A stretch of 64,000 nt of DNA from Streptomyces sp. NBC_00236 (GTDB taxonomy: Bacteria; Actinomycetota; Actinomycetes; Streptomycetales; Streptomycetaceae): assembly GCF_036195045.1 (NCBI RefSeq), contig NZ_CP108100.1, positions 4,836,001 through 4,900,000 of the forward strand. The letters are read 5' to 3'. The notes under the pieces were generated by a model. It saw nothing but the letters and a program-made list of their open reading frames with translations. It had not been told where the DNA came from and did not search any database. Both the position numbers and the translations under genes were made by a program. Below, piece by piece: positions 26,667 through 48,590 of the stretch (the first letter of the stretch is position 1; every line of letters begins with the position of its first letter).

Positions 26667-26681
26667 CTGACGGGTAGTCAG
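26667..26681. promoter_or_regulatory. 15-bp palindromic operator, copy 1
   Basis: CTGACGGGTAGTCAG, a member of the CTGACG-NNN-CGTCAG family with one mismatch between the arms. It is 16 bp upstream of the acyl-CoA ligase start codon, overlapping the expected transcription start, so binding should repress. Confidence 0.6.
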
Positions 26682-26754
26682 ATCGTGCGGAGAGCGTAGA
26701 GCGCTGCGCCTTGTCGGTCCAGGGGTGCGGGGCTAGCCTGTGGGCGACGTCAAT

Positions 26755-26769
26755 CTGACGGGTCATCAG
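26755..26769. promoter_or_regulatory. 15-bp palindromic operator, copy 2
   Basis: CTGACGGGTCATCAG, 25 bp upstream of the amidohydrolase ATG. With copy 1 (centres 88 bp apart) it brackets the divergent promoter region between the ligase and the amidohydrolase-dehydrogenase operon. Confidence 0.6.
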
Positions 26770-26794
26770 AAATGCGTGCGCCGAAGGGGACACC

Positions 26795-27988
26795 ATGACG
26801 GAACTGCCTCGGATCGTCAGCGTCGACGACCATGTGATCGAGCCGCCGCACCTCTTCTCGACCTGGCTGCCCGCCAAGTACCGCGAGCGCGGACCGCAGC
26901 CCCTGACCGCGGGCATCGGCGAGCTGGCGTACACCGGCGGCAAGTACGTCATCACGATGGACCCGGACGGGCCGCCGACCGACTGGTGGATCTACGAGGA
27001 CCTCAAGTTCCCGTACAAGCGGAACATCGCCGCCGTGGGTTTCGACCGGGACGACATGACGCTGGAGGGGATCACCCGGGCCGAGATGCGGCGGGGGTGC
27101 TGGGACCCCGTCGAGCGGCTGAAGGACATGGACCTCAACCATGTCGAGGCGAGCCTCTGCTTTCCCACCTTCCCGCGCTTCTGCGGGCAGACCTTCGCCG
27201 AGGCCCACGACAAGGAGGTCGCGCTCGCCTGTGTGCGCGCGTACAACGACTGGATGGTCGAGGAGTGGTGCGGGGACAGCGGCGGCCGGCTGATCCCGCT
27301 CTGCATCATCCCGCTCTGGGACATCGATCTGGCCGTTGCGGAGATCAGGCGGAACGCCGCGCGGGGAGTGCGGGCGGTGACCTTCTCGGAGATCCCGACC
27401 TATCTGGGGCTGCCGTCGATCCACACCGGGTACTGGGACCCGTTCTTCGCCGTCTGCCAGGAGACCGGCACGGTCGTGAACATGCACATCGGCTCCAGCT
27501 CGCAGATGCCGGCCGCCTCGCCGGACGCCCCGCCGGCCGTCCAGGCCTCGCTCTCCTTCAACAACGCGATGGCCTCGATGATGGACTTCCTGTTCAGCGG
27601 GGTGCTGGTGAAGTTCCCGCAGCTCAAGCTCGCGTACAGCGAGGGCCAGATGGGCTGGATCCCGTACGCCCTGGAGCGCGCCGACGACGTCTGGGAGGAG
27701 CACCGGGCCTGGGGAGGGGTGCGCGATCTGATTCCCGAGCCGCCGTCCACGTACTACTACCGGCAGATGTTCTGCTGCTTCTTCCGCGACAAGCACGGCG
27801 TCGCGTCGCTCGATGTCGTCGGGCGTGACAACGCGACGTTCGAGACGGACTACCCGCACGTGGACTCGACCTTCCCGCACACCAAGGAGGTCGCGCTCGA
27901 CCACGTCAAGGGACTGGACGACGAGACCGTCTACAAACTGATGCGCGGGAACGCGATCCGGATGCTCGGTCTCGACCTCGACAAGTAG
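26795..27988 (+). CDS. Amidohydrolase-2 family metal-dependent hydrolase/decarboxylase
   Basis: 397 residues, TIM-barrel amidohydrolase_2 (ACMSD/hydroxybenzoate-decarboxylase-like) family. SVDDHVIEPPHLFSTWLP holds the N-terminal metal position (D-x-H variant), VNMHIGSSSQMP a middle His, and NATFETDYPHVDSTFPHT the C-terminal Asp/His site. Members hydrolyse cyclic amides or decarboxylate aromatic acids; actinobacterial homologues near acyl-CoA genes are common, but their reaction is mostly unknown. First gene of an operon with two acyl-CoA dehydrogenases, separated from the next gene by only 11 bp. Confidence 0.85.
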   Translation: MTELPRIVSVDDHVIEPPHLFSTWLPAKYRERGPQPLTAGIGELAYTGGKYVITMDPDGPPTDWWIYEDLKFPYKRNIAAVGFDRDDMTLEGITRAEMRRGCWDPVERLKDMDLNHVEASLCFPTFPRFCGQTFAEAHDKEVALACVRAYNDWMVEEWCGDSGGRLIPLCIIPLWDIDLAVAEIRRNAARGVRAVTFSEIPTYLGLPSIHTGYWDPFFAVCQETGTVVNMHIGSSSQMPAASPDAPPAVQASLSFNNAMASMMDFLFSGVLVKFPQLKLAYSEGQMGWIPYALERADDVWEEHRAWGGVRDLIPEPPSTYYYRQMFCCFFRDKHGVASLDVVGRDNATFETDYPHVDSTFPHTKEVALDHVKGLDDETVYKLMRGNAIRMLGLDLDK

Positions 27989-27999
27989 GCGCGCACGTC

Positions 28000-29157
28000 A
28001 TGGACCTTGCGTACACGGAGGAAGAGGAAGCCTTTCGGGCGCGGCTGCGGGAGTGGCTGGGTTCGGTGCTCCCGGGGCTGCCCGGGAAGCCGGACCCCGG
28101 TGACTGGCCGGGGCGCAGGGCGTACGACGCCGGCTGGCAGCGGCTGTTGTACGACGCCGGGTACGCGGGGCTGCACTGGCCCGCCGACGCCGGTGGCCGG
28201 GGCGCCACACCCACGCAGCACCTGATCTTCCTGGAGGAGACGGAGCGGGCCGGGGCGCCCTACGTCGGGGCGAACTTCGTCGGGCTGCTGCACGCCGGAC
28301 CCACCGTCGCGGCCGAGGGCACCGCCGAACAGCGGGCCCGCTGGCTGCCGCCGGTGCTGCGGGGCGAGGAGATGTGGTGCCAGGGGTTCAGCGAGCCGGA
28401 CGCGGGATCGGACCTGGCCTCGCTGCGGACCCGGGCGGTGCGCGACGGCGACGACTACGTGGTGAGCGGGCAGAAGATCTGGACCTCGCACGCGGAGGTC
28501 GCCGACTGGTGCGAGCTGCTGGTGAGGACGGACGCGCAGGCGCCGAAGCACCGGGGCATCAGCTGGCTCGCCATGCGGATGGACAGTCCGGGGGTCACGG
28601 TCAGGCCGCTGCGGACGCTGGCCGGGTCCACCGAGTTCGCCGAGATGTTCCTCGACGAGGTGCGGGTGCCCGTCTCGCACCGCGTCGGGGCGGAGAACGA
28701 CGGCTGGCGGGTCACCATGGTCACGCTCTCGTTCGAGCGCGGGACGGCCTTCGTCGGCGAGGTCGTCGCCTGCCGCCGGACGCTGGACGCGCTGGCCGCC
28801 GAGGCCCGCAGGAACGGGCGCTGGGACGATGCGGTGCTGCGCCGGAGGCTGGGCAGGCTGAGTGCCGAGCTCCGGGCGCTGTGGCGGCTCACCCAGTGGA
28901 ACGTCAGTGAGGCGCAGGCCAGTGGGGGAGTGCCCGGGATCGGCGGTTCGGTCTTCAAGCTGCGGTACTCGCATGTCCGCCAGGAGCTGTACGAGGCGGC
29001 GGCCGAGGTGCTCGGGGCCACGGACGCCCTGGATCTGGACCAGGAGTGGGTGCTGGACCGGCTCTCCTCGCTCTCGTACACGATCGCGGCCGGTACTTCG
29101 CAGATCCAGCGGAACATCGTCGCCGAGCGGATTCTCGGCCTGCCGAAGGGGCGGTGA
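28000..29157 (+). CDS. Acyl-CoA dehydrogenase, large subunit-like
   Basis: 385 residues, complete ACAD. N-terminal helices begin MDLAYTEEEEAFRARLREWL; the FAD/substrate strand WCQGFSEPDAGSDLASLRTR is canonical, as are QKIWTSHAEVADWCEL and the C-terminal SLSYTIAAGTSQIQRNIVAE. It would introduce an alpha,beta double bond in an acyl-CoA, using electron-transfer flavoprotein. The next gene encodes a shorter ACAD 7 bp away, suggesting the two form a hetero-oligomer as in actinobacterial steroid side-chain degradation. Confidence 0.88.
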   Translation: MDLAYTEEEEAFRARLREWLGSVLPGLPGKPDPGDWPGRRAYDAGWQRLLYDAGYAGLHWPADAGGRGATPTQHLIFLEETERAGAPYVGANFVGLLHAGPTVAAEGTAEQRARWLPPVLRGEEMWCQGFSEPDAGSDLASLRTRAVRDGDDYVVSGQKIWTSHAEVADWCELLVRTDAQAPKHRGISWLAMRMDSPGVTVRPLRTLAGSTEFAEMFLDEVRVPVSHRVGAENDGWRVTMVTLSFERGTAFVGEVVACRRTLDALAAEARRNGRWDDAVLRRRLGRLSAELRALWRLTQWNVSEAQASGGVPGIGGSVFKLRYSHVRQELYEAAAEVLGATDALDLDQEWVLDRLSSLSYTIAAGTSQIQRNIVAERILGLPKGR

Positions 29158-29164
29158 GCGGGGA

Positions 29165-30112
29165 GTGGACTTCCAGCTCTCGGAGGACCAGCGCGCCCTG
29201 CGGGCGGGGATACGGGGCCTGCTCGCCGGCCGGTTCGACAGGGACCGGATGCGGGCGGCGCACGAGCGGGGAGGGGGCGTGGACCGGGCGCTGTGGCGGG
29301 AGCTCGGTGCGGCCGGGTTCTTCGCGCTGCGGCTCCCGGAGGCGGCGGGCGGGGTCGGTCTCGGACTGCCCGAATCCGTACTCTTGTTCGAGGAGGTGGG
29401 GCGGGCGCTGCTGCCCGGACCGCTGGCCGCCACCCAGCTGGCCGCGGGCGCGGTGAAGGGGGCGGCCGAGGGTGAGGCCGTGGTCGCGCTGGCGGAGGCG
29501 GGGCGGCCCGTGGGGCACCTGGAGGGGGCCGACGCGCTGCTGGTCCTGGACGGGGACCGGACGCGGCTGGTGAGCGGCGGGGCGCTGCGACGGCTGGTGG
29601 ACGAGGCCCGGCCCGTGCGGTCGCTGGATCCGGGTACGCCGTTGTGGCGGGTGCCGGACCTGTCCGCGTACGAGGGCGAGGTGCTGCCCGACGGGGCGCG
29701 GCTGCGGTGCGAGGGTGCGCTGCTGGCCGCGGCCGAACAGCTCGGCAGTGCCGCCCGCAGCCTGGAGGCGGCCGTCCAACACGCCGGTTCGCGGGAACAG
29801 TTCGGTGTGCCGATCGGGGCGTTCCAGGCGGTCAAACATCTGTGTGCCGGAATGCTGGTGCGCGCCGAGCCGGCCCGCACTGCCGTCTACGCGGCCGCGG
29901 TGACCGGCGACCCGGTGGAGGCCGCCGGGGCCAAGCTCCTTGCCGACGAGGCGGCCGTCGACAACGCCCGCGACTGCCTCCAGGTGCACGGCGGCATGGG
30001 CTTCACCTGGGAGGCGGATGTCCATCTGCGTCTCAAGCGGGCCTGGCTGCGGTCCGGGCAGTGGCTGACGGCGGCGGACGCGGAGGAGGTGCTGGCGGCC
30101 GATCTGGGCTGA
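29165..30112 (+). CDS. Acyl-CoA dehydrogenase, short partner subunit
   Basis: 315 residues, about 60-70 shorter than a normal ACAD. The N-terminal helical domain (VDFQLSEDQRALRAGIRGLL) and C-terminal domain (AAEQLGSAARSLEAAVQHAG, DCLQVHGGMGFTWEADVHL) are present, but the middle beta domain is reduced and lacks the canonical W-x-x-x-T-E/S-P-x-x-G-S-D motif seen in its neighbour. It probably acts as the second half of a heteromeric enzyme. GTG start; AAGGGGCGG lies about 10 nt upstream, overlapping the preceding gene's end. Confidence 0.83.
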   Translation: MDFQLSEDQRALRAGIRGLLAGRFDRDRMRAAHERGGGVDRALWRELGAAGFFALRLPEAAGGVGLGLPESVLLFEEVGRALLPGPLAATQLAAGAVKGAAEGEAVVALAEAGRPVGHLEGADALLVLDGDRTRLVSGGALRRLVDEARPVRSLDPGTPLWRVPDLSAYEGEVLPDGARLRCEGALLAAAEQLGSAARSLEAAVQHAGSREQFGVPIGAFQAVKHLCAGMLVRAEPARTAVYAAAVTGDPVEAAGAKLLADEAAVDNARDCLQVHGGMGFTWEADVHLRLKRAWLRSGQWLTAADAEEVLAADLG

Positions 30113-30567
30113 GCGGGGTGCAAGGGTGCCCCGTGCACGCAGGTGACGCGACGGGCCCCAGAGGTTCACGCTGCGGAGTGACGCAGCGCAGTCGGTACGT
30201 CCCGATACCGGCTTGTGTCCTATGCGTAATTCGTCACGGGCCGGAGTCGGCGCCGGGCTCGGGTACGCTCCGTTGGATGCGAGTGGTTCTGGAACCTGGC
30301 GATCCGGATGTGGCCTGTGCGGCGACTCCGGTCCGCGAGAGGTGCCCTGCTCGTGATCCACGCGGAAGCGCCGGGCCTGCCGGGGAAGCGATTCCCGGGG
30401 TGACTGCGCGCCTCTGTTCGACTCTCCGCAACGTGCGTCGCACAGTATGCACCACGCGTACTCCTTCGCGTTGGAATATGCCCGAAGCGCTTGTTGCGGT
30501 GACTGTACGTCAACCATGCTGTCTCGTAAGGGAATCACGTTCCGTGACCCTGAGGAGGCGCGAGGCG

Positions 30568-30594
30568 ATGTGTCCGCCGGTTCGGATGGTGTGA
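30568..30594 (+). CDS. Leader micro-ORF (8 codons) ahead of the RsbW-like gene
   Basis: ATG TGT CCG CCG GTT CGG ATG GTG TGA, preceded by a strong GAGGAGG (30552-30558). The GTG start of the next gene lies 4 nt past its stop and has no ribosome binding site of its own, so the ribosome probably reaches it by reinitiation. The rest of the 485-bp interval from 30113 shows no other gene. Confidence 0.45.
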   Translation: MCPPVRMV

Positions 30595-30597
30595 GCG

Positions 30598-31122
30598 GTG
30601 CAGGTGCTTCAGGTTCAGTTGGAGGTCGGGCCCGACCCCGCGGAGGTCGGACGGGCCCGCAGATGGGCGCGTTCGAGGCTCGTCGGATCCGGGATAGGAG
30701 ACGACGAGCCGCTGGCCGAGACGCTCATCCTGCTCATCTCGGAGCTGGTCACGAACGCGGTCGTGCACACGGGCTGTCCGGCCGTGCTGCGCATGCTGTT
30801 CGGCTCGACCGGGGCCCCGGGCAATGCCGGGACCGTCCGGGTCGAGGTGGCCGACACCAGCTGCCGCCCGCCGCAGCAGCGGCACGCGGAGGGCGAGGAC
30901 ACCGGCGGCCGCGGCCTTGAACTGGTCGACGGCCTGGCCGACCGCTGGGGCTGGCAGCCGGAAGGTGCGGGCAAGCGCATCTGGTGCGAGGTCGACCGCG
31001 GTATCCCGCTGATCCAGGTGCAGATGCAGCCAGGCCCTCCCGAGCGCGAGAATGCCGACGGCTGCGGCGCGGGCGCCGCGTACGAGGCACACGAGGCGCA
31101 CGCGGGCAGCCACCGCGCGTAG
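30598..31122 (+). CDS. RsbW-like anti-sigma kinase / HATPase_c_2 protein
   Basis: 174 residues. A single histidine-kinase-like ATPase domain: N-box LISELVTNAVVHTG, G1-like VEVADTSCRPP and G2-like GGRGLELVDGLADRWGW. Such proteins are abundant in Streptomyces and either phosphorylate STAS partners or bind sigma factors. The start is fixed within two codons by an in-frame TGA at 30592. The C-terminal 25 residues (ENADGCGAGAAYEAHEAHAG) are low-complexity. Convergent with the cyclase gene. Confidence 0.85.
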   Translation: MQVLQVQLEVGPDPAEVGRARRWARSRLVGSGIGDDEPLAETLILLISELVTNAVVHTGCPAVLRMLFGSTGAPGNAGTVRVEVADTSCRPPQQRHAEGEDTGGRGLELVDGLADRWGWQPEGAGKRIWCEVDRGIPLIQVQMQPGPPERENADGCGAGAAYEAHEAHAGSHRA

Positions 31123-31219
31123 GGCCTCTCGTTCGGATCAGGCCGGGCTCGCGGGGTCCGGCGCGCCCACCCGCGCACGGGGCGGCCGGTATGGCGGGTT
31201 CCGTGCGCGCGGCGGCGGC

Positions 31220-32146
31220 TCAGAGGATCGCGACCGGGGCGACCGGCGTGCCGGTGGCGCCGACGAAGGGCTCCGGCATGGCGGAGAGCAGGAAGGCGTA
31301 GCGCCCCGCGTCCGCACAGGCTGTGGACAAGTCCTCCAGGTTCCAGTTCTGGCCCTGGAGCATGCCCATCTCGACCAGGTCGAGTGCGTGCACCCCCAGC
31401 CACAGGTCCTCGATCTCCGGCGGGAAGATCTCGAAGGTCAGCGTGTCATTGGCGACCGCGGCCACGTCGCGGGCCCGGAACCACTCCGGCGTGCGGATCG
31501 ACAGGCCCGGTGACGGATACCCGTAGGCGTTCTTGTCCCCGGAGAGGTACACCTGCACCTGTCCCGTCCGTACGAGGACGATGTCCCCGGACCGTACCCT
31601 GACCCCGGCCAGTTCCTCGGCCGCCTCCAGGTCCTCGGGGGTGACCGCGTGGCCGCCCGGCAGCCGGTCCACGCCGTGGGCACGGGCGACGTCGAGGAGG
31701 ACCCCGCGCGAGACGATGTGCGGCGCCTTGTCGATGCCGCTGAACTGCGCGCCGCCGTGGGCGGTGATCGTGGCCGCCGGCCGCCCGTTGTAGATCTTCC
31801 CCGAGTGCGAGGCGTGGGTGAGCGCGTCCCAGTGGGTCGCGGCCTGGAGCCCCAGGACGGCGGTGTCGTCGCTGGTGGCGACGGTGCCGGGGCCGAAGAT
31901 CTCCTGATTGATCTGGACCATGGTGTGCAGCGGATTGACCCGCCCGGGGATCAGCCCGCTCTGTACGCCGTCCTGCTGGAGCGGCAGGGCGAGCGCGATA
32001 CGTCGGCCGCTGCGGACGGTGGCCGCCGCCTCCTGTACGACCTCGTCGGTGATGAGGTTGAGGGTGCCGATCTCGTCGTCGGCACCCCAGCGACCCCAGT
32101 TGTTCACGCGCTTGGCGAGGTCGTGGAACTCGGCCGGCAAAGACAT
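31220..32146 (-). CDS. Cyclase family / kynurenine formamidase-like metal hydrolase
   Basis: 308 residues. The family metal motif H-W-D-x-x-x-H appears in AATHWDALTHASHSGKIYNG; GVLLDVARAHGVDRLPGGHA and SGDIVLVRTGQVQ are further conserved blocks. N-terminus NNWGRWGADDEIGTLNLIT is typical of the actinobacterial cyclase subfamily that acts on ring or amide substrates. AGGAGG lies 7 nt before the ATG. Divergent from the SDR gene, with a palindromic operator between them, so probably coregulated. Confidence 0.86.
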   Translation of the reverse strand: MSLPAEFHDLAKRVNNWGRWGADDEIGTLNLITDEVVQEAAATVRSGRRIALALPLQQDGVQSGLIPGRVNPLHTMVQINQEIFGPGTVATSDDTAVLGLQAATHWDALTHASHSGKIYNGRPAATITAHGGAQFSGIDKAPHIVSRGVLLDVARAHGVDRLPGGHAVTPEDLEAAEELAGVRVRSGDIVLVRTGQVQVYLSGDKNAYGYPSPGLSIRTPEWFRARDVAAVANDTLTFEIFPPEIEDLWLGVHALDLVEMGMLQGQNWNLEDLSTACADAGRYAFLLSAMPEPFVGATGTPVAPVAIL

Positions 32147-32175
32147 GGCGCCTCCTGGGGCTTGTGCCGGTGGAC

Positions 32176-32207
32176 CTGATGACCCATAGAATCTAACGGT
32201 CCGTCAG
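32176..32207. promoter_or_regulatory. Palindromic operator copy 3 with adjacent degenerate copy
   Basis: CTAACGGTCCGTCAG at 32193-32207 is one arm mismatch from the family consensus, 22 bp before the SDR start. Immediately beside it CTGATGACCCATAGA (32176-32190) matches the reverse complement of copy 2 in 12 of 15 positions. A double site could serve both divergent promoters. Confidence 0.55.
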
Positions 32208-32229
32208 AAACCGCGGGAAGGGGCCGGGC

Positions 32230-33147
32230 ATGGGGAACTTCTTGGCAGGCAAGGTCGTGGCAGTGACGGGTGCCGGGCGCGGCATCGGGCGGGCCGTCGC
32301 GCTCGCCGCGGCGGCGGAGGGGGCGAGGGTCGTGGTCAACGACTACGGCGTCTCCATCGAGGGAGGTGAGCCCGCCAGCGAGATAGCGGAGTCCGTCGTC
32401 AAGGAGATCGTGGCGGCGGGCGGCGAAGCGGTCGCGGTGGCGGACGACATCTCCACGATGGCCGGCGGACAGCGGGTCGTGGACACCGCGCTGGCGGAGT
32501 TCGGCCGGATCGACGGGGTCGTCTGCGTGGCCGGGATCCTGCGTGAACGCATGCTCTTCAACATGTCCGAGGCGGAGTGGGACCCCGTGGTCGCCACCCA
32601 TCTCAAGGGCACGTTCACCGTTTTCCGGGCGGCCTCCGCGGTGATGCGCAAACAGGAGGGCGCCGGCACGCTCATCGGCTTCACCAGCGGCAACCACCAG
32701 GGCAGCGTCGCCCAGGCGAACTACAGCGCGGCCAAGGGCGGCATCATCTCGCTGGTCCGCAGCGCGGCGCTGGGCCTCCACAAGTACGGCGTCACGGCGA
32801 ACGCGGTCGCGCCGGTGGCGCGGACCCGGATGTCCGCGAACGTCCCCATGGAGTTGAAGGAGATCGGCGAACCGGAGGACGTGGCGGCACTCGTCGTCTA
32901 CCTGCTCAGCGAGCGCGCCCGCGCGGAGAGGATCACCGGCCAGGTGTACACGATCGCGGGCCCGAAGATCGCGGTCTGGGCCCAGCCGAGGGAACTGCGC
33001 GCGGGGTACGCGGAAGGGGCGGCGTGGACTCCGGAACGCATCGCGGACTTCCTGCCCGGGACGGTCGGGACGGACCCGATGCCGATGCTGGCGCAGCTGG
33101 AGGAGATGGCGGCGGCGGCCAAGGCCGCGGCGCGGCCGAACGCGTAG
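32230..33147 (+). CDS. SDR-family 3-hydroxyacyl-CoA dehydrogenase-like oxidoreductase
   Basis: 305 residues. Rossmann cofactor motif TGAGRGIG (15-22 region) and catalytic Ser ... YSAAKGG (Tyr-x-x-x-Lys). The length and the insert VVNDYGVSIEGGEPASEIAE resemble the SDR domain of peroxisomal multifunctional enzyme 2 and actinobacterial acyl-CoA SDRs, so oxidation of a 3-hydroxyacyl-CoA with NAD+ is likely. The C-terminal tail beyond 250 (AQPRELRAGYAEGAAWTPER) is also typical of that group. A palindromic operator lies just upstream. Confidence 0.87.
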   Translation: MGNFLAGKVVAVTGAGRGIGRAVALAAAAEGARVVVNDYGVSIEGGEPASEIAESVVKEIVAAGGEAVAVADDISTMAGGQRVVDTALAEFGRIDGVVCVAGILRERMLFNMSEAEWDPVVATHLKGTFTVFRAASAVMRKQEGAGTLIGFTSGNHQGSVAQANYSAAKGGIISLVRSAALGLHKYGVTANAVAPVARTRMSANVPMELKEIGEPEDVAALVVYLLSERARAERITGQVYTIAGPKIAVWAQPRELRAGYAEGAAWTPERIADFLPGTVGTDPMPMLAQLEEMAAAAKAAARPNA

Positions 33148-33214
33148 CCGGGTGAGCCTTCCCGCCCCGGGGCGGGCGCCTGCCACCGCCTCTGCGGCAC
33201 GGGTTCCTTCCCCT

Positions 33215-33295
33215 TGCGGGGTGGGGCGGCCCGCATTCGTCCCTGCGGGGTGGGGCGGGCGCGGATTCGTTCCTGCGGGGTGGAGTGGGCCTGTG
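33215..33295. repeat. Tandem repeat of about 30 bp, 2.6 copies
   Basis: Units starting TGCGGGGTGGGGCGG recur at 33215, 33244 and 33274 (periods 29 and 30), each followed by GCATTCGT or GGATTCGT. Non-coding, between the SDR gene and the inverted repeat at 33341. Confidence 0.6.
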
Positions 33296-39257: not shown

Positions 39258-39899
39258 TCAGCCGCTGAAGCGTCCGAACGACCCGCGGTGGAAGAGCAGC
39301 GGACCCTCTCCGTCTTCGTCCGCCGTCGCCCCCAGCGCCTCCACCCGGCCGACGACGATCAGGTGGTCGCCGCCGGTGTGGACGGCCTGGATGCGGCAGT
39401 CGACCCACGCGGGCACGTCGTGCAGCAGGGGCGAACCGGTCGCGGGCGCGGGGGAGTGCGCCACTCCGGCGAACTTGTCGGCCCCGCTCACCGCGAAGCC
39501 CCGGCACAGCGCGCCCTGGTCCGCGCCCAGGATGTTGACGCAGAAGGCCCCGGCGCGGGCGATGCGGGGCCAGGTCGTCGACGTACGGGCGACCATGAAC
39601 GTGACCAGTGGCGGGTCCAGCGAGAGCGAGGAGAACGACTGGCAGGCGAAGCCCGCCGGGCCGGCCGATCCGTCGGCGTCGCCCGGGTCGTGTGCCGTGA
39701 CCACGGTGACCCCGCTCGCGAAGTGCCCCAGGACGCGCCGGAACTCGCCCCGGTCGAGCGGCAGCCGCTCGTCCTCGGCGACGGCCCGCAGCGAGGGCCG
39801 CGGCAGCGGATCGACCCGCTCCGGGCCGACGGCCGTCGGAGCGCCGACGGACCTGAGATAGCGGACTGCGGTTGCGGCCATGCCTGCGTGTCCCATCAC
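39258..39899 (-). CDS. Flavin reductase (HpaC/HsaB-like)
   Basis: 213 residues. Flavin reductase-like split-barrel domain from about 50: LDRGEFRRVLGHFASGVTVV, then GFACQSFSSLSLDPPLVTFM, RAGAFCVNILGADQGALCRG and WVDCRIQAVHTGGDHLIVVG. It supplies reduced FMN/FAD to a two-component monooxygenase. No oxygenase partner is adjacent. The ATG of MAATAVRY at 39881 is an alternative start. A perfect-armed palindromic operator lies 13 bp upstream of the first start. Confidence 0.87.
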   Translation of the reverse strand: MMGHAGMAATAVRYLRSVGAPTAVGPERVDPLPRPSLRAVAEDERLPLDRGEFRRVLGHFASGVTVVTAHDPGDADGSAGPAGFACQSFSSLSLDPPLVTFMVARTSTTWPRIARAGAFCVNILGADQGALCRGFAVSGADKFAGVAHSPAPATGSPLLHDVPAWVDCRIQAVHTGGDHLIVVGRVEALGATADEDGEGPLLFHRGSFGRFSG

Positions 39900-39912: not shown

Positions 39913-39927
39913 CTGACGATGCGTCAG
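39913..39927. promoter_or_regulatory. 15-bp palindromic operator, copy 4 (perfect arms)
   Basis: CTGACG-ATG-CGTCAG, perfect 6-bp arms, 13 bp upstream of the flavin reductase start and 101 bp from the divergent PAP2 gene. Confidence 0.65.
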
Positions 39928-41434: not shown

Positions 41435-42862
41435 TCACGGGGCGAGTGCCTCCTTGGACAGCAGTCTGCCGTCCCGGAAGCAGAGCCGGTACGCGTCCCC
41501 GGACCGGTCATCGAAGCGGTCGGCGGTCATCGCGTAGTACACACACGTGACGCCCGGTCCCTTCGGCTCCCCGGCCACCGGCCGCTGCCTGGTCTCGCGT
41601 TCGGGCAGCAGGTGGGCGACCGAGGCCCGTTCCTGGCCCACCCGGAGCCGTGCGTAGTCGCCCGGGTGCAGGACGGACTGCCGGGCCGAGTGGATGTCCC
41701 ACCCCATGAGCGCGGCGCTCAGCACCGCCCACGCCGCCAGTGGCAGCACGACGGCGAGGACCAGGGCCCGGCGGACGCGGCTGCGGGCGCGCCGGTGCTC
41801 CGGGGGCAGGTCCTGCCGGACGGCTTCGGGCGCGGCGGTGGGGAGGAGTTGGACGGGCGGGGTGTGCGGGAGGCGCGCGACGACCGCGAAGCCGTCGGCG
41901 TACGGGCCGTGGGTGAAGGTGCCCCCCGCCAGCCGTACGCGTTCGTCCAGCCCGATCAGCCCCAGCCCGGTGCCGGGGGCGCCCGACCAGCCCGTGGTTC
42001 CGGGCGGCGGGCCGTTCTCGACCCGTACCGTCGTCACCCCGCCTCCGTGGACCAGCCGCACGTCCACCCGGGCCCGCGGCGCGTGCTTGGCCGCGTTCGT
42101 CAGGGCCTCCTGGACGACGCGGTGGGCGGCCCGTGCGGCCGGCGGGGGCATGGCCGCGGCGTCGCCCTCGGTGTGGAGGGCGACCGGGAGACCGGCGGCG
42201 GCCGCCTCCGCGACCAGCCGGGGAATGCCGGTGCCGGGCGGTCCGGGCGGCCCGTCGTCAGCCTCCTCGCGCAGGAGGCCGATCACCTCGCCGAGCCGCT
42301 CCACCGAGGCGGCCGCCCGGGCCCGGATCTCGCCGGCCGCTGCCCGGTGGACCTCGTCCAGCCCGGGAGCGAGTTTGAGGGCGCCGGCCGACAGGGCGAT
42401 GAGGCTCAGCTCGTGCCCGAGGACGTCGTGCACGTCCTGCGCGATGCGGGCCCGCTCACGGGACCGGGCCTGCTCCGCGACGAGCTGCTGCTCGCGCTCC
42501 AGCCGGGCCGCCCGCTCCCAGCCGGCCCGTACGAGCTCCTGGTACTGACGCCAGAACCGTCCCGCGAACCACGGCAGCATCGCGGCCACCACGACCACCG
42601 CGACGAACCGCCCCGCCATCAGCAGCCAGGAAGGCACCAGGGCAACCGCCACCACTCCACCGGCCACCAGCGTGACGAGCACCAGAAGGGTCGGCCCGGT
42701 CCTGCCCGGCTCGCGCCCGGCGAGGAACGCCGTCACCGCGGCAGGCAGCGCCCACCACAGGCTGACCGTGCTCAGTGCGACGCAGGCCCCGGCGGCCACG
42801 GTCAGCAGGCTCCCCGGTGCGGCGGCCCGCCGGGCCGCGTCGCTGATCGTCGCTCTCTCCAC
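41435..42862 (-). CDS. Sensor histidine kinase (HisKA_3) with C-terminal extension
   Basis: 475 residues. Four to five N-terminal helices (VALSTVSLWWALPAAVTAFL, GPTLLVLVTLVAGGVVAVAL ...), dimerisation/phospho-His block ERARIAQDVHDVLGHELSLI, and ATPase domain with N-box VVQEALTNAAKHAPRARVDV and G-box GTGLGLIGLDERV. Unusually, after the ATPase domain (about residue 350) a further transmembrane helix (ALVLAVVLPLAAWAVLSAAL) and an extracellular segment of about 85 residues follow. GTG at 42862 is chosen as MERATISD; upstream sequence is not family-like. Pairs with the adjacent response regulator. Confidence 0.86.
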   Translation of the reverse strand: MERATISDAARRAAAPGSLLTVAAGACVALSTVSLWWALPAAVTAFLAGREPGRTGPTLLVLVTLVAGGVVAVALVPSWLLMAGRFVAVVVVAAMLPWFAGRFWRQYQELVRAGWERAARLEREQQLVAEQARSRERARIAQDVHDVLGHELSLIALSAGALKLAPGLDEVHRAAAGEIRARAAASVERLGEVIGLLREEADDGPPGPPGTGIPRLVAEAAAAGLPVALHTEGDAAAMPPPAARAAHRVVQEALTNAAKHAPRARVDVRLVHGGGVTTVRVENGPPPGTTGWSGAPGTGLGLIGLDERVRLAGGTFTHGPYADGFAVVARLPHTPPVQLLPTAAPEAVRQDLPPEHRRARSRVRRALVLAVVLPLAAWAVLSAALMGWDIHSARQSVLHPGDYARLRVGQERASVAHLLPERETRQRPVAGEPKGPGVTCVYYAMTADRFDDRSGDAYRLCFRDGRLLSKEALAP

Positions 42863-43028
42863 CCGGCCGACCGTACGCAACCGGAGGCTGCGGCGGCACT
42901 GCCGAAAGTCAGGGGTGCCCGACGCCCGCACATGGAGGTTGGCCGCGGCTTCCCGTACAGCGGCGACACCGGGTGGCGCAGCGGATACCCGGAGTTGTCA
43001 CAAGTGGGGGAGCGAAAGGAGATGCGAG

Positions 43029-43592
43029 ATGACCAGTGCGCCCGACTACGGGCAGGGCATCGACTCCGAACGCGCCCTGAAATGCGCGGTACAGCGCATC
43101 CGCGGAGATCGTGTCCAGATCATCGAGGGGATCATCGAGCCCGTGTCACCGACCTGGGAGCACGAACGCGCCGCCCGGGTGGTCCGCCGCCAGATCGAGG
43201 ACCGTGTCGACGCACTCGGATGCGTCGAGGGCTCGGGGAACCTGGACCTGCCCGGCTCGTCGAACTGGTACGTCCCCGACATCGCCGTCGTACCCGAGGC
43301 GCTCGCCAAGGGCGGCGGGGCTCTGCTCCCCGACCAGACGCTTCTCGTCGTGGAAGTCACGTCCGAGTCGGACGCGGAGACCGACCGGGTCGTGAAGCGC
43401 CGCCGGTACGCCGAGTACCGTGCCCCCCTCTACCTCCTCGTCGACCGGATCGAAGGCAGCGTCACCCTGTTCTCGGAGCCCGGCGATCTCGGGTACACCC
43501 ACGTGGACGGCCCGCACCCGTTCGGTACGGTTCTGCGGCTGCCGGACCCGTTCGGCCTGGACCTGGACACGAGCGGGCTGTCCCCCGCGTGA
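43029..43592 (+). CDS. Uma2/DUF820 family putative endonuclease
   Basis: 187 residues. PD-(D/E)XK-like Uma2 fold: YVPDIAVVPE contains the conserved P-D, LLVVEVTSESDAETDRVVKR the E-V-T-S-x-S and following Lys, and YRAPLYLLVDR the last strand. These proteins are common in cyanobacteria and streptomycetes; nuclease activity is inferred from fold only. AAAGGAG at good spacing before the ATG at 43029. Convergent with the hydratase gene with 12 bp between. Confidence 0.85.
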   Translation: MTSAPDYGQGIDSERALKCAVQRIRGDRVQIIEGIIEPVSPTWEHERAARVVRRQIEDRVDALGCVEGSGNLDLPGSSNWYVPDIAVVPEALAKGGGALLPDQTLLVVEVTSESDAETDRVVKRRRYAEYRAPLYLLVDRIEGSVTLFSEPGDLGYTHVDGPHPFGTVLRLPDPFGLDLDTSGLSPA

Positions 43593-43604
43593 CGCGGGCG
43601 CCCC

Positions 43605-44474
43605 TCACACGCCCCGGTACTTCGGCACCCGCCGCTCCACGAAGCTCGCCACGCCCTCGTTGGCGTCCTGCGTCGTCATGTTGATCTCCTGAGCCATCGC
43701 CTCGGCCGCGAACGCCGTGGTCCGGTCCGCGTCCAGCGACGCGTTGACGAGCTGCTTCGTGAGGGCGATCGCGCGGGTGGGTCCCTCGGCCAGGCGCTGG
43801 GCCCAGGCCTTCGCCGTAGCCGCCAGCTCCTCGTCCGGGACCGTCCGGTTGACCAGGCCCAGACGCTCCGCCTCCGCCGCCGGCAGCGAGTCGCCGAAGA
43901 ACATCAGCTCCTTGGCGCGCTGCGGGCCGATCAGGCGCGGCAGCAGGTACGCCCCACCGCCGTCCGGTACGAGGCCGCGGCGCACGAACACCTCGATGAA
44001 CGTGGCCGACTCGGCGGCCAGCACCAGGTCGCAGGCGAACGCGAGATGCGCGCCGATGCCCGCCGCCGTGCCGTTGACCGCCGCGAGGACGGGCTTCTCG
44101 CAGTCCAGGACCGCGGCGATCAGGCGCTGAGCACCGAGCCGGATCGTACGGGCCACGTCGCCCGGGACCCGGTCGCCGGTGGCGGGGGAACGGGTGGCTT
44201 GGGAACCGGTGGCCGGGGCGCCGCGAAGGTCGGCGCCCGCGCAGAAGCCGCGGCCGGTGGCGGTGAGGACCACGGCCCGGATGCCGGGGTCGGCGGAGGC
44301 CTCGCCGAGCAGGGCGATGATGCGTTCGCGCTGGTCCCAGGTGACGGCGTTCATCGCCGCGGGGCGGTTGAGCGTGATCCACGAGACGCCGTTGTCAGTG
44401 GCGTGGAGTATCAATGATTCAGGCGATCCGGACGGGTCGGCGTGGTCAGTGGTGTCTTCGGGGGAGGACGGCAT
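43605..44474 (-). CDS. Enoyl-CoA hydratase/isomerase
   Basis: 289 residues, crotonase fold. NGVSWITLNRPAAMNAVTWD is the N-terminal signature, GRGFCAGADLRG forms the first oxyanion-hole strand and AVNGTAAGIGAHLAFACDLV the second; Glu positions FIEVFVRRGLVPDGG match hydratases. A Pro/Ala/Thr/Gly repeat (ATGSQATRSPATGD) sits in the loop after the first oxyanion strand. Would hydrate a 2-enoyl-CoA. The NDP-forming synthetase gene lies 67 bp upstream on the same strand, likely one operon under the two operators at 46828-46866. Confidence 0.88.
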   Translation of the reverse strand: MPSSPEDTTDHADPSGSPESLILHATDNGVSWITLNRPAAMNAVTWDQRERIIALLGEASADPGIRAVVLTATGRGFCAGADLRGAPATGSQATRSPATGDRVPGDVARTIRLGAQRLIAAVLDCEKPVLAAVNGTAAGIGAHLAFACDLVLAAESATFIEVFVRRGLVPDGGGAYLLPRLIGPQRAKELMFFGDSLPAAEAERLGLVNRTVPDEELAATAKAWAQRLAEGPTRAIALTKQLVNASLDADRTTAFAAEAMAQEINMTTQDANEGVASFVERRVPKYRGV

Positions 44475-44541
44475 GAGGCAGCTCCTGGGCGGGTGGTGGG
44501 CCCGGTGGCGGGGTGGGCGGTCGGCGTGGTGGCGGGGTCGG

Positions 44542-46770
44542 TCAGCGGCAGACCGCCAGCGCGTCCAGGGCGACGGCGCCCTGGCCCCGGCCCAGCACCA
44601 TCAGCGGGTTGATGTCGAGCTCGACGAGGTCGTCGCCGAGTTCCAGGGCCATCCGCTGCACCCGCAGGACGACTTCGACGAGGGCGTCCACATCCACCGG
44701 CGGACCGCCCCGCACGCCTTCCAGCAGTGCCCGGCCGCGCAGTTCGCCGAGCATCGCCCGCGCCTGGTCCTCGCCGAACGGCGGCACGCGCACCGCCGCG
44801 TCGTGCAGCACCTCGACGAGTACGCCTCCGAGGCCGACCGTCACCGTCGGTCCGAACAGGGCGTCCTGCGTGACGCCGACCATCATCTCGACGCCCCGCT
44901 CGATCATCTGGCAGACCAGGATGCCGTCCAGCTCGACGTCCTCGTAGCGCGCGATGTCGGTGAGTTCGCGATAGGCGTCCCGCACCTGGCTGGCGGAGGT
45001 GAGACCGACCTTGACCAGGCCCAGTTCCGTCTTGTGCGCCAGCCGCGCGCCGGACGCCTTCATGACGACGGGGTAGCCGACGAGCCCCGCCGCCCGGACG
45101 GCCGCCGCGGCGCTGGTCACCAACTGCTCGCGGGGCACCCGGATTCCGTACGCGCGCAGCAGCTGCTTCGCCGCGTGCTCGCTCAGCTGGTGGCCCGGGC
45201 GCATCAGTGCCTGCGCCTTGCGGAAGGAGGGCGACGGGGTGCGCGGCGCCTCGTCGAACGGGGAGCGGTAGGAGGCGGTGAACCGGTGGTGGTCCAGATA
45301 CGCCTTCACCGCGGTGATGCAGTTGCCGAACGTACGGAAGGTGGCGACGCGGGACGAGCCGAGCAGCGTCGTGCGGTAGGCGTCCTCGGTGCCGACCGGC
45401 GACCCCCAGATCACGCACACCAGCTTGTCCGTGGCCTCCGCCGCGTCCACCAGGTCCTGCGCGAGCTTGTCGCTCATCGGCGGGAAGGGGCCGGTGATCG
45501 GACAGATCAGCACCCCGACCTCCGGGTCGGCGAGGATCGCGTCGATGATCTTCCGGCCGCGCCAGTCGCCGACCGGGTGGCCGCCGTTGTCGACCGGGTT
45601 CGCCACGTTCAGGTAGGAGGGGATCCAGGTGTGGAGTTCGGCCTGCTTCGCCTCGGACAGGACCGGGAGCGACAGACCGGCCTCCGTCGCCAGGTCCGAG
45701 AAGTGCGCGCCCGTGCCGCCCGAGATCGAATACACCACGACGCCGTCGGCGAGGGGCTTGCGGGCCCGGGCCAGGAGGGCCGCGGTGTCCTGGAGTTCGT
45801 CGAGGCCGTCCACCCGGATCACGCCGAACTGCCGCATCGCCGCGTCGACGACCTGGTCGGCGCCGGTCAGCTTGCCGGTGTGTGACGCGGCCATCCTGGC
45901 CCCCGTCTCCGTACGTCCCACCTTGACCGCCACCACCGGGACCCCGGCCCGCGCGGCGCGGTCCGCGGCGAGCAGGAAGGAGCGCCCGTCCTTGAGCCCT
46001 TCGACGTAGCAGGCGATCGCCCCGACCTCGGGGCGCTGCGAGAAGTACGCGATGAAGTCGGAGGTCTCCAGATCGGCCTCGTTGCCCGTGGGAGCCCAGT
46101 GCGAGAGCCGCACGCCCAGCTCCTGGAGCGTGTAGACGGGGCGTCCCTGGTGGCCGGACTGGGTGATCAGCGCGATCGCCGGCCCGTCCAGGTCGTCGCG
46201 GAACTCCTCGAAGGCGTTGAGGTTGGTGTTCGGGCCGAGCAGCCGCAGCCCCGACCGCTCGACGGCGGCGGCCAGCCGGGCCTGTGCGGCGGCGCCCTCC
46301 GCACCGGTCTCGGCGAATCCGGAGGCGAAGGCGACGGCGAACTTCACCTTGGCCTGCGCGAGTTCCTCGATCACGGGGAGCGGGTCGCCGACCAGCAGGA
46401 CCGCCAGGTCCACCTGTTCCGGCAGATCGGCGACGGAGGGAGCGCAGGCCCGGCCGAAGACGGACTCGCGGGTGGGGTGCACCGGATGCAGCCGTGCCCC
46501 GACGCGCTCGGCCCAGGCGATCAGCTGACGGGTGATCCCGGTGTTGGGGCGTCCCTCGGTGTCGGACGCGCCGATGACGGCGACGGACTCCGGCCGGAAG
46601 AACCGGTCCAGATCCGGTACGGGCGCGTGCAGCGGGCGGCCGCTGACGTCGAGGTCGCCCTCCGCGGCGGCGGCCGCCATGCTGTGGACGGCGGCGTGCG
46701 GTTCCTCGCCGCAGGCCACCACCCTGGCGCGGAAGTCGGTGGTGAGGGTGCCGTGAGTCGATCCAAGCAT
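44542..46770 (-). CDS. NDP-forming acyl-CoA synthetase (acetate-CoA ligase type)
   Basis: 742 residues. Domain order: CoA-binding Rossmann domain (FRPESVAVIGASDTEGRPNT, about 55-185), succinyl-CoA-ligase-like domains (GRTETGARMAASHTGKLTGA, VYSISGGTGAHFSDLATEAG) and a C-terminal ATP-grasp domain (LLRAYGIRVPREQLVTSAAA, YPVVMKASGARLAHKTELGL, ELDINPLMVLGRG). It interconverts acyl-CoA + ADP/Pi and acid + ATP. In actinobacteria such proteins usually accompany acyl-CoA catabolism. ATG at 46770; two palindromic operators upstream. Confidence 0.87.
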   Translation of the reverse strand: MLGSTHGTLTTDFRARVVACGEEPHAAVHSMAAAAAEGDLDVSGRPLHAPVPDLDRFFRPESVAVIGASDTEGRPNTGITRQLIAWAERVGARLHPVHPTRESVFGRACAPSVADLPEQVDLAVLLVGDPLPVIEELAQAKVKFAVAFASGFAETGAEGAAAQARLAAAVERSGLRLLGPNTNLNAFEEFRDDLDGPAIALITQSGHQGRPVYTLQELGVRLSHWAPTGNEADLETSDFIAYFSQRPEVGAIACYVEGLKDGRSFLLAADRAARAGVPVVAVKVGRTETGARMAASHTGKLTGADQVVDAAMRQFGVIRVDGLDELQDTAALLARARKPLADGVVVYSISGGTGAHFSDLATEAGLSLPVLSEAKQAELHTWIPSYLNVANPVDNGGHPVGDWRGRKIIDAILADPEVGVLICPITGPFPPMSDKLAQDLVDAAEATDKLVCVIWGSPVGTEDAYRTTLLGSSRVATFRTFGNCITAVKAYLDHHRFTASYRSPFDEAPRTPSPSFRKAQALMRPGHQLSEHAAKQLLRAYGIRVPREQLVTSAAAAVRAAGLVGYPVVMKASGARLAHKTELGLVKVGLTSASQVRDAYRELTDIARYEDVELDGILVCQMIERGVEMMVGVTQDALFGPTVTVGLGGVLVEVLHDAAVRVPPFGEDQARAMLGELRGRALLEGVRGGPPVDVDALVEVVLRVQRMALELGDDLVELDINPLMVLGRGQGAVALDALAVCR

Positions 46771-46827
46771 CGTTCCGCCCACTCCTGCTCGAAAGTCCGT
46801 CGGCACGCGCGGTGCCCGGGCACAAAA

Positions 46828-46866
46828 CTGACGCTCTGTCAGGTTACTGAACTGACGGCCCGTCAG
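46828..46866. promoter_or_regulatory. Paired palindromic operators, copies 5 and 6
   Basis: CTGACGCTCTGTCAG (46828-46842) and CTGACGGCCCGTCAG (46852-46866), centres 24 bp apart, 57 and 81 bp upstream of the acyl-CoA synthetase start. The second has perfect arms. Paired sites suggest cooperative binding. Confidence 0.65.
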
Positions 46867-46900
46867 GAATGGGCGTGCAGGGAAAGGTTGAGAGCGGAGC

Positions 46901-46952
46901 TCCGGAAGGACCTGAGAGCGGTGGTCCGGAAGGACCTGAGAGCGGTGGTCCG
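46901..46952. repeat. Tandem 24-bp repeat, two copies plus part
   Basis: Units beginning TCCGGAAGGACCTGAGAGCG at 46901 and 46925, with a third start at 46949. They run into the hairpin at 46938-46979. Non-coding. Confidence 0.6.
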
Positions 46953-46979
46953 GGATCCTGCCACCGGACCACCGCTCTC
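46938..46979. terminator. 16-bp stem hairpin
   Basis: GAGAGCGGTGGTCCGG (46938-46953) and its perfect complement (46964-46979) with a 10-nt loop. It would stop minus-strand transcription from the monooxygenase gene before it reaches the operators of the synthetase gene. Confidence 0.65.
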
Positions 46980-47002
46980 GACCTCGGGACGCCCCACGGG
47001 CG

Positions 47003-47152
47003 TCAGAGTGCGGCGACGACCTCCTCGGCGACGCGCTCGCCCGAGCGGACGGCGCCGTCCGTCCCCGCTCCGACGGGCGCGCGCAGCGCGGCGCCGTAGC
47101 GGGTCAGGGTGCCGGGCGGGACGTGGCTGACCGGGCCACCACGGAAGGTGGG
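47003..47152 (-). pseudogene. C-terminal fragment of a flavin amine oxidase
   Basis: On the minus strand the frame reads FRGGPVSHVPPGTLTRYG, then AALRAPVG, then TDGAVRSGERVAEEVVAAL and stop. This is the C-terminal end of FAD monoamine/putrescine oxidases, but the expected segment between APVG and DGAVRSGE, which normally has H-W-A-G-T-E and the FAD-contacting W-x-G-Y-M, is deleted in frame. No upstream oxidase sequence remains. It lies between the monooxygenase stop and the hairpin. A 29-bp direct repeat (47187-47215 and 47248-47276) covers the monooxygenase end and may be a scar of the same event. Confidence 0.6.
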
Positions 47153-47273
47153 TCTCGTTGTCCCGGCGCTGGAGCACGAACCGGTCGGGGTCTTCGCGCG
47201 GGCGGGGACGGATCACGGCCGGGTCCGGTTTCCCGGCCGACGACTGCGGGGTCTTCGCGCGGGCGGGGGCGGA

Positions 47274-48464
47274 TCAAACGCTGCGCGCCAGCCGCTTCGC
47301 GATCTTCTGTGCGTCCAGGGCCATTTCGCGGAACATGCCGCTGATCGGGTTGGTGAACCCGGTGAAGTACAGGCCGGGCGCCTGCTTCGGCGTGCGGCCG
47401 CCGTGCGCCACCGGACGGCCCCGCGCGTCCAGCACCCCGAGATGGCCGACCAGCGGTTCCAGGGCCCGCCGATAGCCGGTCGCGGCGATCACCGTGTCCG
47501 GGGTGATCCGGGTCCCGTCCGCCAGCACCACCGCGTCCTCGTCGAACGACTCGACGGCCGCCACCGGTACCACCCGGCCGTCCTTCACCGCGTCGATCAG
47601 TCCCACGTCCTGGACCGGGATCGCCCCGTCCTTGACCCGGGAGTACAGGCCCGTGTCCGGGCGGGGCAGCCCCTGTTCCGCGAGGTCGGGCACCGCGACG
47701 CGGGCCATCAGCCCACCCGCCCGGTCGACGAGCGCGACGGGCAGCCGGCGCACCAGGATGCCCGTCGCCTGTGCGGGCCAGCCCGCCGTGGAGCGGCGCA
47801 CGATGTGCGGGACGGTGCGCACCGCGAGCCGTACGCGCGCCGCGCCGCCCTCCACCAGGTCGACGGCGATCTCCGCGCCCGTGTTGCCGACGCCCACGAC
47901 GAGGACGTCCTGGCCCGCGTACGGAGCCGGGTTGCGGTACGCGGAGGCATGCAGCAGTTCGCCGGTGAAGGTGTCGCGTCCGGACCAGTCGGGGATCCGC
48001 GGGGTGTGGTTGTAGCCGGTGGCCACGACCACGGCCCGGCCGGTCAGTTCCCGTCCGCCGGTCGCGGTCAGCCGCCATCCGGTGCCGTCGGCCGCCCGGT
48101 CGACGCGGGAGACCTCGACGCCCGTCACCACTTCCAGCTCGTGGTGCTCGGCGTACTTCTCCAGGTAGCGCACCACGTCGTCCCGGGAGACCCAGCGGCC
48201 GAACCTGCGGGGCATGGGCAGCCCGGGCAGGGCGGACCAGCGCCGGGTGGTGTGCAGGTGCAGCCGGTCGTAGTGGCGCCGCCAGGACGCCCCCACGTCC
48301 GCGGACTTCTCCAGGACGACCGCGCGGACCCCCTGCTCGCGCAGGGCCGCGGCGGCGGCCAGGCCGCCCGGACCGCCGCCGATGACGTAGACCGGTCGGT
48401 CCTCGGTGATGTCGGTGGGGGCCGGGGTATTGCTGCTACCGGCGGTAGGTGTGCTGTCGGACAT
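47274..48464 (-). CDS. Flavin-containing monooxygenase (YUCCA/Baeyer-Villiger-like)
   Basis: 396 residues. FAD motif YVIGGGPGGLAAAAALREQG, NADPH motif VVGVGNTGAEIAVDLVEGGA, and the ATG-type motif VVVATGYNHTPRIPDW; YFTGFTNPISGMFREMALDA near the C-terminus. Architecture fits the class B flavoprotein monooxygenases that oxygenate N, S or ketone carbons. Bears a Thr/Pro/Ser-rich N-terminal 20 residues. Divergent from the DoxX operon across a region with a palindromic operator (copy 7), which is 112 bp from this start and so mainly placed for DoxX. Confidence 0.87.
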   Translation of the reverse strand: MSDSTPTAGSSNTPAPTDITEDRPVYVIGGGPGGLAAAAALREQGVRAVVLEKSADVGASWRRHYDRLHLHTTRRWSALPGLPMPRRFGRWVSRDDVVRYLEKYAEHHELEVVTGVEVSRVDRAADGTGWRLTATGGRELTGRAVVVATGYNHTPRIPDWSGRDTFTGELLHASAYRNPAPYAGQDVLVVGVGNTGAEIAVDLVEGGAARVRLAVRTVPHIVRRSTAGWPAQATGILVRRLPVALVDRAGGLMARVAVPDLAEQGLPRPDTGLYSRVKDGAIPVQDVGLIDAVKDGRVVPVAAVESFDEDAVVLADGTRITPDTVIAATGYRRALEPLVGHLGVLDARGRPVAHGGRTPKQAPGLYFTGFTNPISGMFREMALDAQKIAKRLARSV

Positions 48465-48575
48465 GGTTCGGAGCGTAATCGCGCGCCCCCTTGATGGGTC
48501 TCGGTCAAGACCGGAATCGATTGCGAATTGATCACGGGTGCGCGCCTCTTGCGCGGGCCGCCGCCATCGGGTGAA

Positions 48576-48590
48576 CTGACGTACCGTCAG
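48576..48590. promoter_or_regulatory. 15-bp palindromic operator, copy 7 (perfect arms)
   Basis: CTGACG-TAC-CGTCAG, 23 bp before the DoxX start codon, in the divergent region with the monooxygenase gene. Confidence 0.65.

Follow-up and report, generated by a model that had tools for sequence, protein, structure and literature searches.

A short palindrome with the core CTGACGnnnCGTCAG recurs before genes of coenzyme A (CoA) thioester and redox metabolism in Streptomyces sp. NBC_00236. We consider it likely that this palindrome serves as the operator for a catabolic regulon spread over the genome, that its regulator is the candidate TetR protein encoded at genome positions 4926670-4927317, and that it acts by the mechanism proposed below. 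The stretch analyzed (the window) is 64,000 nucleotides long and comprises positions 4836001-4900000 of one 8.33-Mb contig (NZ_CP108100.1). The regulon is real and conserved and has a strong candidate regulator, while TetR-controlled acyl-CoA catabolism is already a known kind of system. A first-pass annotation of the window had proposed that a TetR-type repressor controls a regulon of acyl-CoA catabolism. This is supported by the thiolase-family and tetR genes located beyond the window and by the genes next to the sites: by our own tally, 25 of the strong intergenic sites (35 in total) adjoin acyl-CoA or redox genes or operons, and these 25 occupy about 21 intergenic regions.

Palindromes in the window

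Seven places in the window match the palindrome with no more than one arm mismatch, whereas dinucleotide shuffles (n = 100) gave a mean of 0.53 and a largest count of 3, and none reached seven. The sites at 39913, 46852 and 48576 are perfect and those at 26667, 26755, 32193 and 46828 carry one arm mismatch. Matches with exactly two mismatches are absent, and up to three mismatches the count does not exceed expectation (54 observed vs 74.5 expected); the set of sites is therefore sharply bounded. From 40 intergenic sites we built a matrix; its extended consensus is ATCTGACGnnnCGTCAGAT, in which the spacer is free. Genes were called with a codon-usage script, on which intergenic status and all site-to-start distances rest; by these calls all seven sites are intergenic and adjoin acyl-CoA genes. 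Coordinates, sequences, mismatch numbers and intergenic placement of the seven sites are all as the first-pass annotation had given them. A degenerate eighth site that it had placed at 32176 is not found among the matrix hits of at least 11 bits, and was rejected as an operator for falling below this listing threshold.

Operator O1 (CTGACGGGTAGTCAG, 26667-26681, 23.8 bits) lies 16 bp before the start of a ligase gene on the minus strand and 113 bp before an amidohydrolase gene on the plus strand, and O2 (CTGACGGGTCATCAG, 26755-26769, 27.2 bits) lies 25 bp before the latter. The site at 32193-32207 (CTAACGGTCCGTCAG, 26.3 bits) is located 22 bp before a short-chain dehydrogenase (SDR) gene (+) and 46 bp before a divergent cyclase-family gene (-). 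At 39913-39927 (CTGACGATGCGTCAG, 27.3 bits) the distance to the flavin reductase gene (-) is 31 bp, or 13 bp with the upstream GTG of the open reading frame list. Two operators precede the acyl-CoA synthetase gene (-), CTGACGCTCTGTCAG at 46828-46842 (25.6 bits, 57 bp before the start) and CTGACGGCCCGTCAG at 46852-46866 (25.8 bits, 81 bp), spaced 24 bp start to start. The last, CTGACGTACCGTCAG at 48576-48590 (27.7 bits), is found 23 bp before a DoxX gene (+) and 111 bp before a divergent gene for an FMO-like monooxygenase (-).

Distribution across the genome

Over the whole contig, 104 places match the palindrome with at most one mismatch, nine of them perfectly, compared to 29 for the reversed pattern. 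The stretches that were read (0.96 Mb, 16.6% of bases intergenic) hold 80 of these 104 places. The first-pass annotation had named matches scattered through coding sequence as evidence against a regulon; where this was examined we find instead that all nine perfect copies are intergenic, as are 35 of the 38 sites scoring at least 20 bits (the strong sites). The reversed stretches contain no site at this score, although training and test overlap, the 40 training sites of the matrix being drawn from the same set. A called start codon lies no more than 120 bp from the end of 31 of the 35 strong intergenic sites.

Forward and reversed-control counts per mismatch class (59 vs 7, 59 vs 44 and 87 vs 29) are given as side numbers only, as the control is imperfect: the reversed pattern is probably not composition-matched, because even G189, a small genome without the amidohydrolase, shows a forward excess (15 vs 2 matches). 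The case therefore rests on the position and the conservation of the sites. Similarly, CTGACGN5TCAG occurs a median of 83 times in 43 genomes with the amidohydrolase and 49.5 times in 18 without, but some amidohydrolase-free genomes also have high counts (131 in G190).

The genes neighboring 34 of the 35 strong intergenic sites were scanned for families. Targets include acyl-CoA dehydrogenases, AMP- and NDP-forming ligases, thiolase-family proteins and ChsH2-type OB proteins, as well as SDRs, luciferase-like oxygenases, amidohydrolases, a P450, a protein of the ferredoxin-reductase type, an old-yellow-enzyme relative and a flavin reductase. A MaoC hydratase is also among them, 158 bp from its site and with an ABC ATPase gene nearer. 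Two of the 35 sites are ambiguous, one next to a polyketide-cyclase/lipid-transport protein and one next to an ABC ATPase.

Conservation of the sites

Matches to the window amidohydrolase at E ≤ 1e-100 are present in 43 of 61 Streptomyces genomes, its own included, and promoters were compared for the 30 best of these 43 matches, with the window's own locus among them. All 30 ligase/amidohydrolase loci have a site and 29 have both. Relative to the window, the arms of O1 and O2 are 93 and 98% identical over the 30 loci, the spacers 46 and 29%, and the 230-bp promoter region 59% on average. With conserved arms around free spacers, we therefore read these sites as the footprint of a protein that recognizes the arms whatever the spacer between them.

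Inspection by eye places promoter-like elements upstream of both operators. On the plus strand, TTGTCG (26711-26716) and TAGCCT (26734-26739), separated by 17 bp, lie upstream of O2 in largely conserved columns, and in the ligase promoter a -10-like TACGCT (26693-26698, minus strand) lies upstream of O1 within a conserved block of the 30-locus alignment. These -35- and -10-like elements are putative promoters. Their position bears on the alternative that the protein activates its targets, binding near promoters and, when loaded with ligand, recruiting polymerase in the manner of FasR-type TetR activators. We think this very unlikely, as the operators lie downstream of the -10-like boxes, most strong intergenic sites are within 120 bp of a start, and the nearest fold to the candidate regulator, by 3 Z units, is EthR, a repressor according to the PDB titles.

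The neighborhood of the candidate regulator provides a second conserved promoter. Among the matches listed, 80 loci (none from Sporichthyaceae) were compared, and a thiolase gene of more than 60% identity is located next to the tetR gene in 22. A site is present within 250 bp upstream of this thiolase in 22 of 22 loci; for called genes overall in the 80 loci the figure is 148 of 1292. The first-pass annotation had also named a lack of conservation before orthologous genes as evidence against it, and neither promoter set shows such a lack. Seventy-five loci are long enough to judge, and the thiolase is missing from 53 of them; in 45 of the 53, the interval 1-8.5 kb downstream of the tetR gene is free of strong sites. 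Only the thiolase was used for this comparison; of 75 loci searched by tblastn with an acyl-CoA dehydrogenase, one gave a hit, a low yield that is perhaps due to low-complexity masking or to real absence.

These data also bear on the possibility that the palindromes are not operators but RNA hairpins or an iterated repeat, such as a terminator, uptake or chromosome-organizing sequence. The arms are conserved and the spacers free before orthologous genes, the sites follow the thiolase and not the locus, and in NBC_00236 the perfect copies are all intergenic with the strong ones before starts; we consider this explanation extremely improbable. What speaks for it comes from another family. In five Sporichthyaceae (G012, G031, G046, G059, G072) the core CTGACGnnnCGTCAG occurs 109-218 times per genome, with 0-1 for the control. 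In Sporichthya polymorpha (G012), 36 of the 135 copies were read: 15 are within coding sequence and a further 12 separate convergent genes; both stop codons fall inside the arms in 4 of these 12 and one stop codon in 6, and among spacers of 0-7 bases only the 3-base spacer occurs. This looks like an iterated genomic palindrome, distinct from the operator case. Because most of the copies read are not at promoters, the Sporichthyaceae were dropped as support for the regulator and left out of the argument.

Three of the G012 copies (L210:5001, L211:4001 and L212:2001) have about 30 bp of flank in common, as would be expected at the end of an insertion sequence or in some other repeat.

Candidate regulator

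Both the TetR-type regulator and a thiolase had been expected outside the window, and the annotated part of it (26667-48590) contains no tetR gene. A tetR gene is indeed found at 4926670-4927317, between two thiolase-family genes and 26.7 kb past the window end. Two thiolase-family genes have sites at their starts (4923397-4924575 and 4934057-4935205) and lie, with the tetR gene, 23-35 kb beyond the window. The run of sites continues there at 4924580, 4924687, 4935260 and 4940767. The product matches TetR_N at its N-terminus with 26.8 bits (Pfam cut-off 24) and TetR_C_38 (PF19352) at its C-terminus with 245 bits. A model of a 95% identical relative has ten helices and an all-helical C-terminal domain, with a predicted local distance difference test (pLDDT) score of 93. 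The NCBIfam KstR equivalog NF033703 gave no match to the product at E ≤ 1e-3. All 61 Streptomyces genomes examined carry the gene.

The start codon of the tetR gene lies inside a half-degenerate operator copy, CTGACGGCATGACAG, and a weak copy at this position is found in 12 of the 13 Streptomyces loci of a class-wide sample. In 78 of the 80 listed loci, the majority-base frequency averages 0.945 for positions -8 to -1 relative to the start and 0.72 for -60 to -11; part of this conservation could derive from the -10 box (TAAGCT, read by eye) of a leaderless transcript. For 23 orthologues from outside Streptomyces, a site of at least 14 bits is present within -300 to +18 in 20; of 920 windows placed at random in these loci, 105 have one. 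The 23 cannot be counted as independent cases (five Sporichthyaceae, five from family f14, four from f16, three Catenulispora, two Actinomadura, and one each from f4, f12, f19 and Yinghuangia). One Sporichthyaceae locus falls below 14 bits, at 13.5. The first-pass annotation had proposed to look for a tetR gene with the site in its own promoter, and such genes are thus found outside Streptomyces, but the Streptomyces copy is weak.

Regulator and sites also occur together across genomes. In the class sample of 148 genomes the tetR gene was called in 31 (E ≤ 1e-20). All 21 genomes with at least six perfect palindromes carry it, and no genome without it exceeds five. With the Sporichthyaceae excluded, 16 genomes have at least six copies (10 Streptomyces, five f14 and one f16). 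Within f14, five genomes with the gene have 14, 14, 13, 14 and 7 copies, whereas three without it have 0, 0 and 1. Ten carriers have fewer than six perfect copies. In 33 genomes the tetR gene shares a contig with the gene for a second regulon amidohydrolase, and in 32 of these the two are 12-22 kb apart; an amidohydrolase of the window type is encoded within 70 kb of the tetR gene in 26 of 34 genomes.

Several observations weigh against the palindrome as operator of this TetR protein. In Streptomyces, the repressor's own site is weak (12.3 bits, two arm mismatches), and no start-codon copy is seen in 1 of the 13 class-sample loci and in 4 of the 80 listed loci. The f4 and f19 orthologues have no site (1.0 and -1.2 bits). 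The f16 sites are located 229-265 bp before the matched start and are therefore relevant only if translation in fact begins upstream of that position; the f16 open frames are longer than the match. The gene persists in Streptomyces genomes that have few sites (G134 has one perfect copy), so that the protein may have another role, and 5 of the 21 genomes with at least six copies are Sporichthyaceae, in which most copies read are not promoter sites. As at most 20 candidates were scored per genome, absences of the tetR gene are soft. In NBC_00236, 43 of the 71 one-mismatch copies in the stretches read are intergenic, which is an upper figure because the 24 unplaced matches are non-random, about two thirds having their mismatch at arm positions of low excess (59 vs 44 in the control). 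Three of the 38 strong sites lie inside called genes. Seven of the 35 strong intergenic sites, which may be due to chance, are beside genes without a catabolic link (M23 and NlpC/P60 peptidase-family genes, an aspartate decarboxylase, a GH75, an F5/8-type-C and two secreted-looking proteins without Pfam match). Finally, a sigma-70 consensus scan reported no promoter at 26600-26850.

The perfect palindrome has no copies in the f4 and f19 genomes (G027 and G019). In G027 the tetR orthologue (L119) contains one in-frame TGA and lacks an upstream operator, and is possibly a decaying gene.

The weak copy over the Streptomyces tetR start and the retention of the gene where few sites remain could also mean that the regulon is real but bound by another regulator, either the product of another TetR_N gene or a protein of another family, the cluster TetR being a target or a neighbor. 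The genome has at least 129 TetR_N matches (150 of 318 first-look candidates scored). However, by eye we find no site of at least 18 bits in promoters of TetR_N genes (about 0.96 of 8.33 Mb scored), and the best upstream score of the other tetR gene near the cluster (4913222) is 8.6 bits. Moreover, site and candidate stay together across several families, including the 5-to-3 contrast within f14. We regard another regulator as improbable, though the most serious of the alternatives considered.

Proposed mechanism

With the TetR protein at 4926670-4927317 as the repressor, a dimer would occupy the palindrome when no inducer is present and block transcription. In the best-conserved promoter the operators are just downstream of the -10-like boxes TAGCCT (26734-26739, +) and TACGCT (26698-26693, -), and a dimer bound there would therefore be expected to block polymerase. 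Once a bulky hydrophobic acid has entered the cell, either the acid itself or its CoA thioester would fill the helical C-terminal pocket and the dimer would be released. This would lead to joint induction of ligases, acyl-CoA dehydrogenases, hydratases, thiolase/aldolase-type proteins, SDRs, luciferase-like and amidohydrolase-fold oxygenases, and reductases. The repressor may limit its own expression via the half-degenerate copy over its start codon.

About twenty promoter regions (25 sites), many before genes of unassigned substrate, would in this way be joined to one candidate regulator. The ligand that frees the repressor would point to the substrate of the acyl-CoA clusters, and a well-defined pair of operator and repressor may serve as a sensor.

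Comparison with known systems

In mycobacteria, according to the accessible parts of the sources, KstR (PMC1995591) and KstR2 (PMC3068626) are TetR-type repressors of large sets of lipid- and cholesterol-degradation genes. The system described here is alike in its candidate TetR-type repressor and large lipid-catabolic gene set, and differs in that targets also include luciferase-like and amidohydrolase-fold proteins. The operators of KstR and KstR2 are short palindromes, like the operator here, which presumably differs from both motifs.

The nearest solved fold and sequence profile of the candidate is EthR from Mycobacterium tuberculosis, at about 18% identity. EthR is a repressor with a long hydrophobic pocket, which acts at one monooxygenase gene via a long operator bound by several dimers. 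In contrast, we observe one dimer-sized palindrome in many promoters. The acyl-CoA-sensing proteins FadR, FasR and DesT, which have a TetR fold and acyl-CoA ligands, are among the fold neighbors of the candidate as well; their operators are not known to match the one here. None of the operators in the table of PMC3511530, a source available in part, matches it.

In the open-licence literature, the motif written with N does not occur in any of six spellings. For shorter motif strings, no such regulon is found among the matches listed, with most subscription journals outside this coverage.

Putative target genes in the window

Pfam agrees with the gene families that the first-pass annotation had assigned around the sites, but its list of targets left out the cyclase-family gene that shares the 32193 site. 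Pfam and NCBIfam matches below curated cut-offs are taken as hints only. The ligase before O1 is an AMP-forming acyl-CoA ligase (25109-26650, -; PF00501, 1.6e-66). The opposite operon encodes the amidohydrolase-fold protein (26795-27988, +; PF04909), an acyl-CoA dehydrogenase with all three Pfam domains (28000-29157, +; PF00441, PF02770 and PF02771) and a short acyl-CoA dehydrogenase (29165-30112, +), for which the nearest NCBIfam model is IpdE2, below its cut-off. The cyclase-family protein (31220-32146, -; PF04199, 5.5e-22) is divergent from the SDR (32230-33147, +; PF13561). These are followed by the flavin reductase (39258-39881, -; PF01613, 1.9e-40) and by the acyl-CoA synthetase of the NDP-forming type (44542-46770, -; PF13549, PF13607 and PF13380; 8wzu, 4.8e-93), with an enoyl-CoA hydratase family protein downstream of it (43605-44474, -; PF00378, 2.7e-56).

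The FMO-like flavin monooxygenase (47274-48464, -; PF13738 and PF00743) is divergent from the DoxX operon. This encodes a DoxX-like membrane protein (48614-49066, +; PF07681, 1.2e-4, 23 bits with a cut-off of 23.6), a ChsH2-type protein with OB-fold and zinc ribbon (49063-49479, +; PF01796 and PF12172) and an SDR (49626-50393, +), and an acyl-CoA thioesterase gene is found at 50558-51340 (+; PF20789 and PF13622). The first-pass annotation had counted this operon as part of the regulon, and its site is intergenic and close to the DoxX start, but the operon looks accessory because a search of the 60 other Streptomyces genomes at E ≤ 1e-80, with 44 candidates scored in each, found no counterpart of its SDR. 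For the same reason, this SDR was dropped as a second conserved window promoter.

Possible substrate

The nearest solved relatives of the long acyl-CoA dehydrogenase (28000-29157) are Tcur3483 and 4x28, which we take to be steroid side-chain enzymes. The closest solved relatives of the window amidohydrolase, by E-value, are DitZ, known here by its PDB name, and PtmU3 (8uyr, 9.3e-55; 6omp, 6.8e-37). Through the alignments with these two proteins, the six metal-ligand positions of AibH2 (D-x-H, H, E and D..H) appear by eye to be filled. The window protein is a predicted dinuclear oxygenase. PtmU3 and the AibH2-type enzymes belong to a class for which, in the accessible part of the source, the name amidohydrolase-related dinuclear oxygenases is used (PMC10811679), and PtmU3 is described, again in a source available in part, as a hydroxylase of diterpenoid biosynthesis that accepts CoA-linked substrates (PMC7782822).

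Judged from these protein families, the regulon targets suggest the breakdown, as CoA thioesters, of bulky steroid- or terpenoid-like acids. Because of the likeness to DitZ/PtmU3 and to Tcur3483/4x28, and the sub-cut-off likeness to IpdE2, bulky polycyclic acids are our best guess for what is degraded, and a tentative one. More speculative, and in our view rather doubtful, is the wider idea that the TetR protein could act throughout the genus as master repressor of a so far undescribed programme by which Streptomyces feeds on bulky polycyclic (steroid- or diterpenoid-like) acids in the form of CoA thioesters. This programme would use dinuclear oxygenases of the DitZ/PtmU3 type and luciferase-like enzymes, with one such CoA thioester as inducer.

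Other features

The actinobacterial small RNA family Ms_IGR-5 has a match in the window at 6158-6355 on the minus strand (89 bits, gathering score 45). A run of genes that begins at window position 63815 (L017, 3815-16014) opens with a phage-tail-sheath-like protein and, by eye from the translations, is probably a contractile injection system. At about 11560-11680 of L018, a short unit of roughly 16 bp (ACGAGCGTCACCACGG) is repeated in tandem ahead of a gene at 11692.

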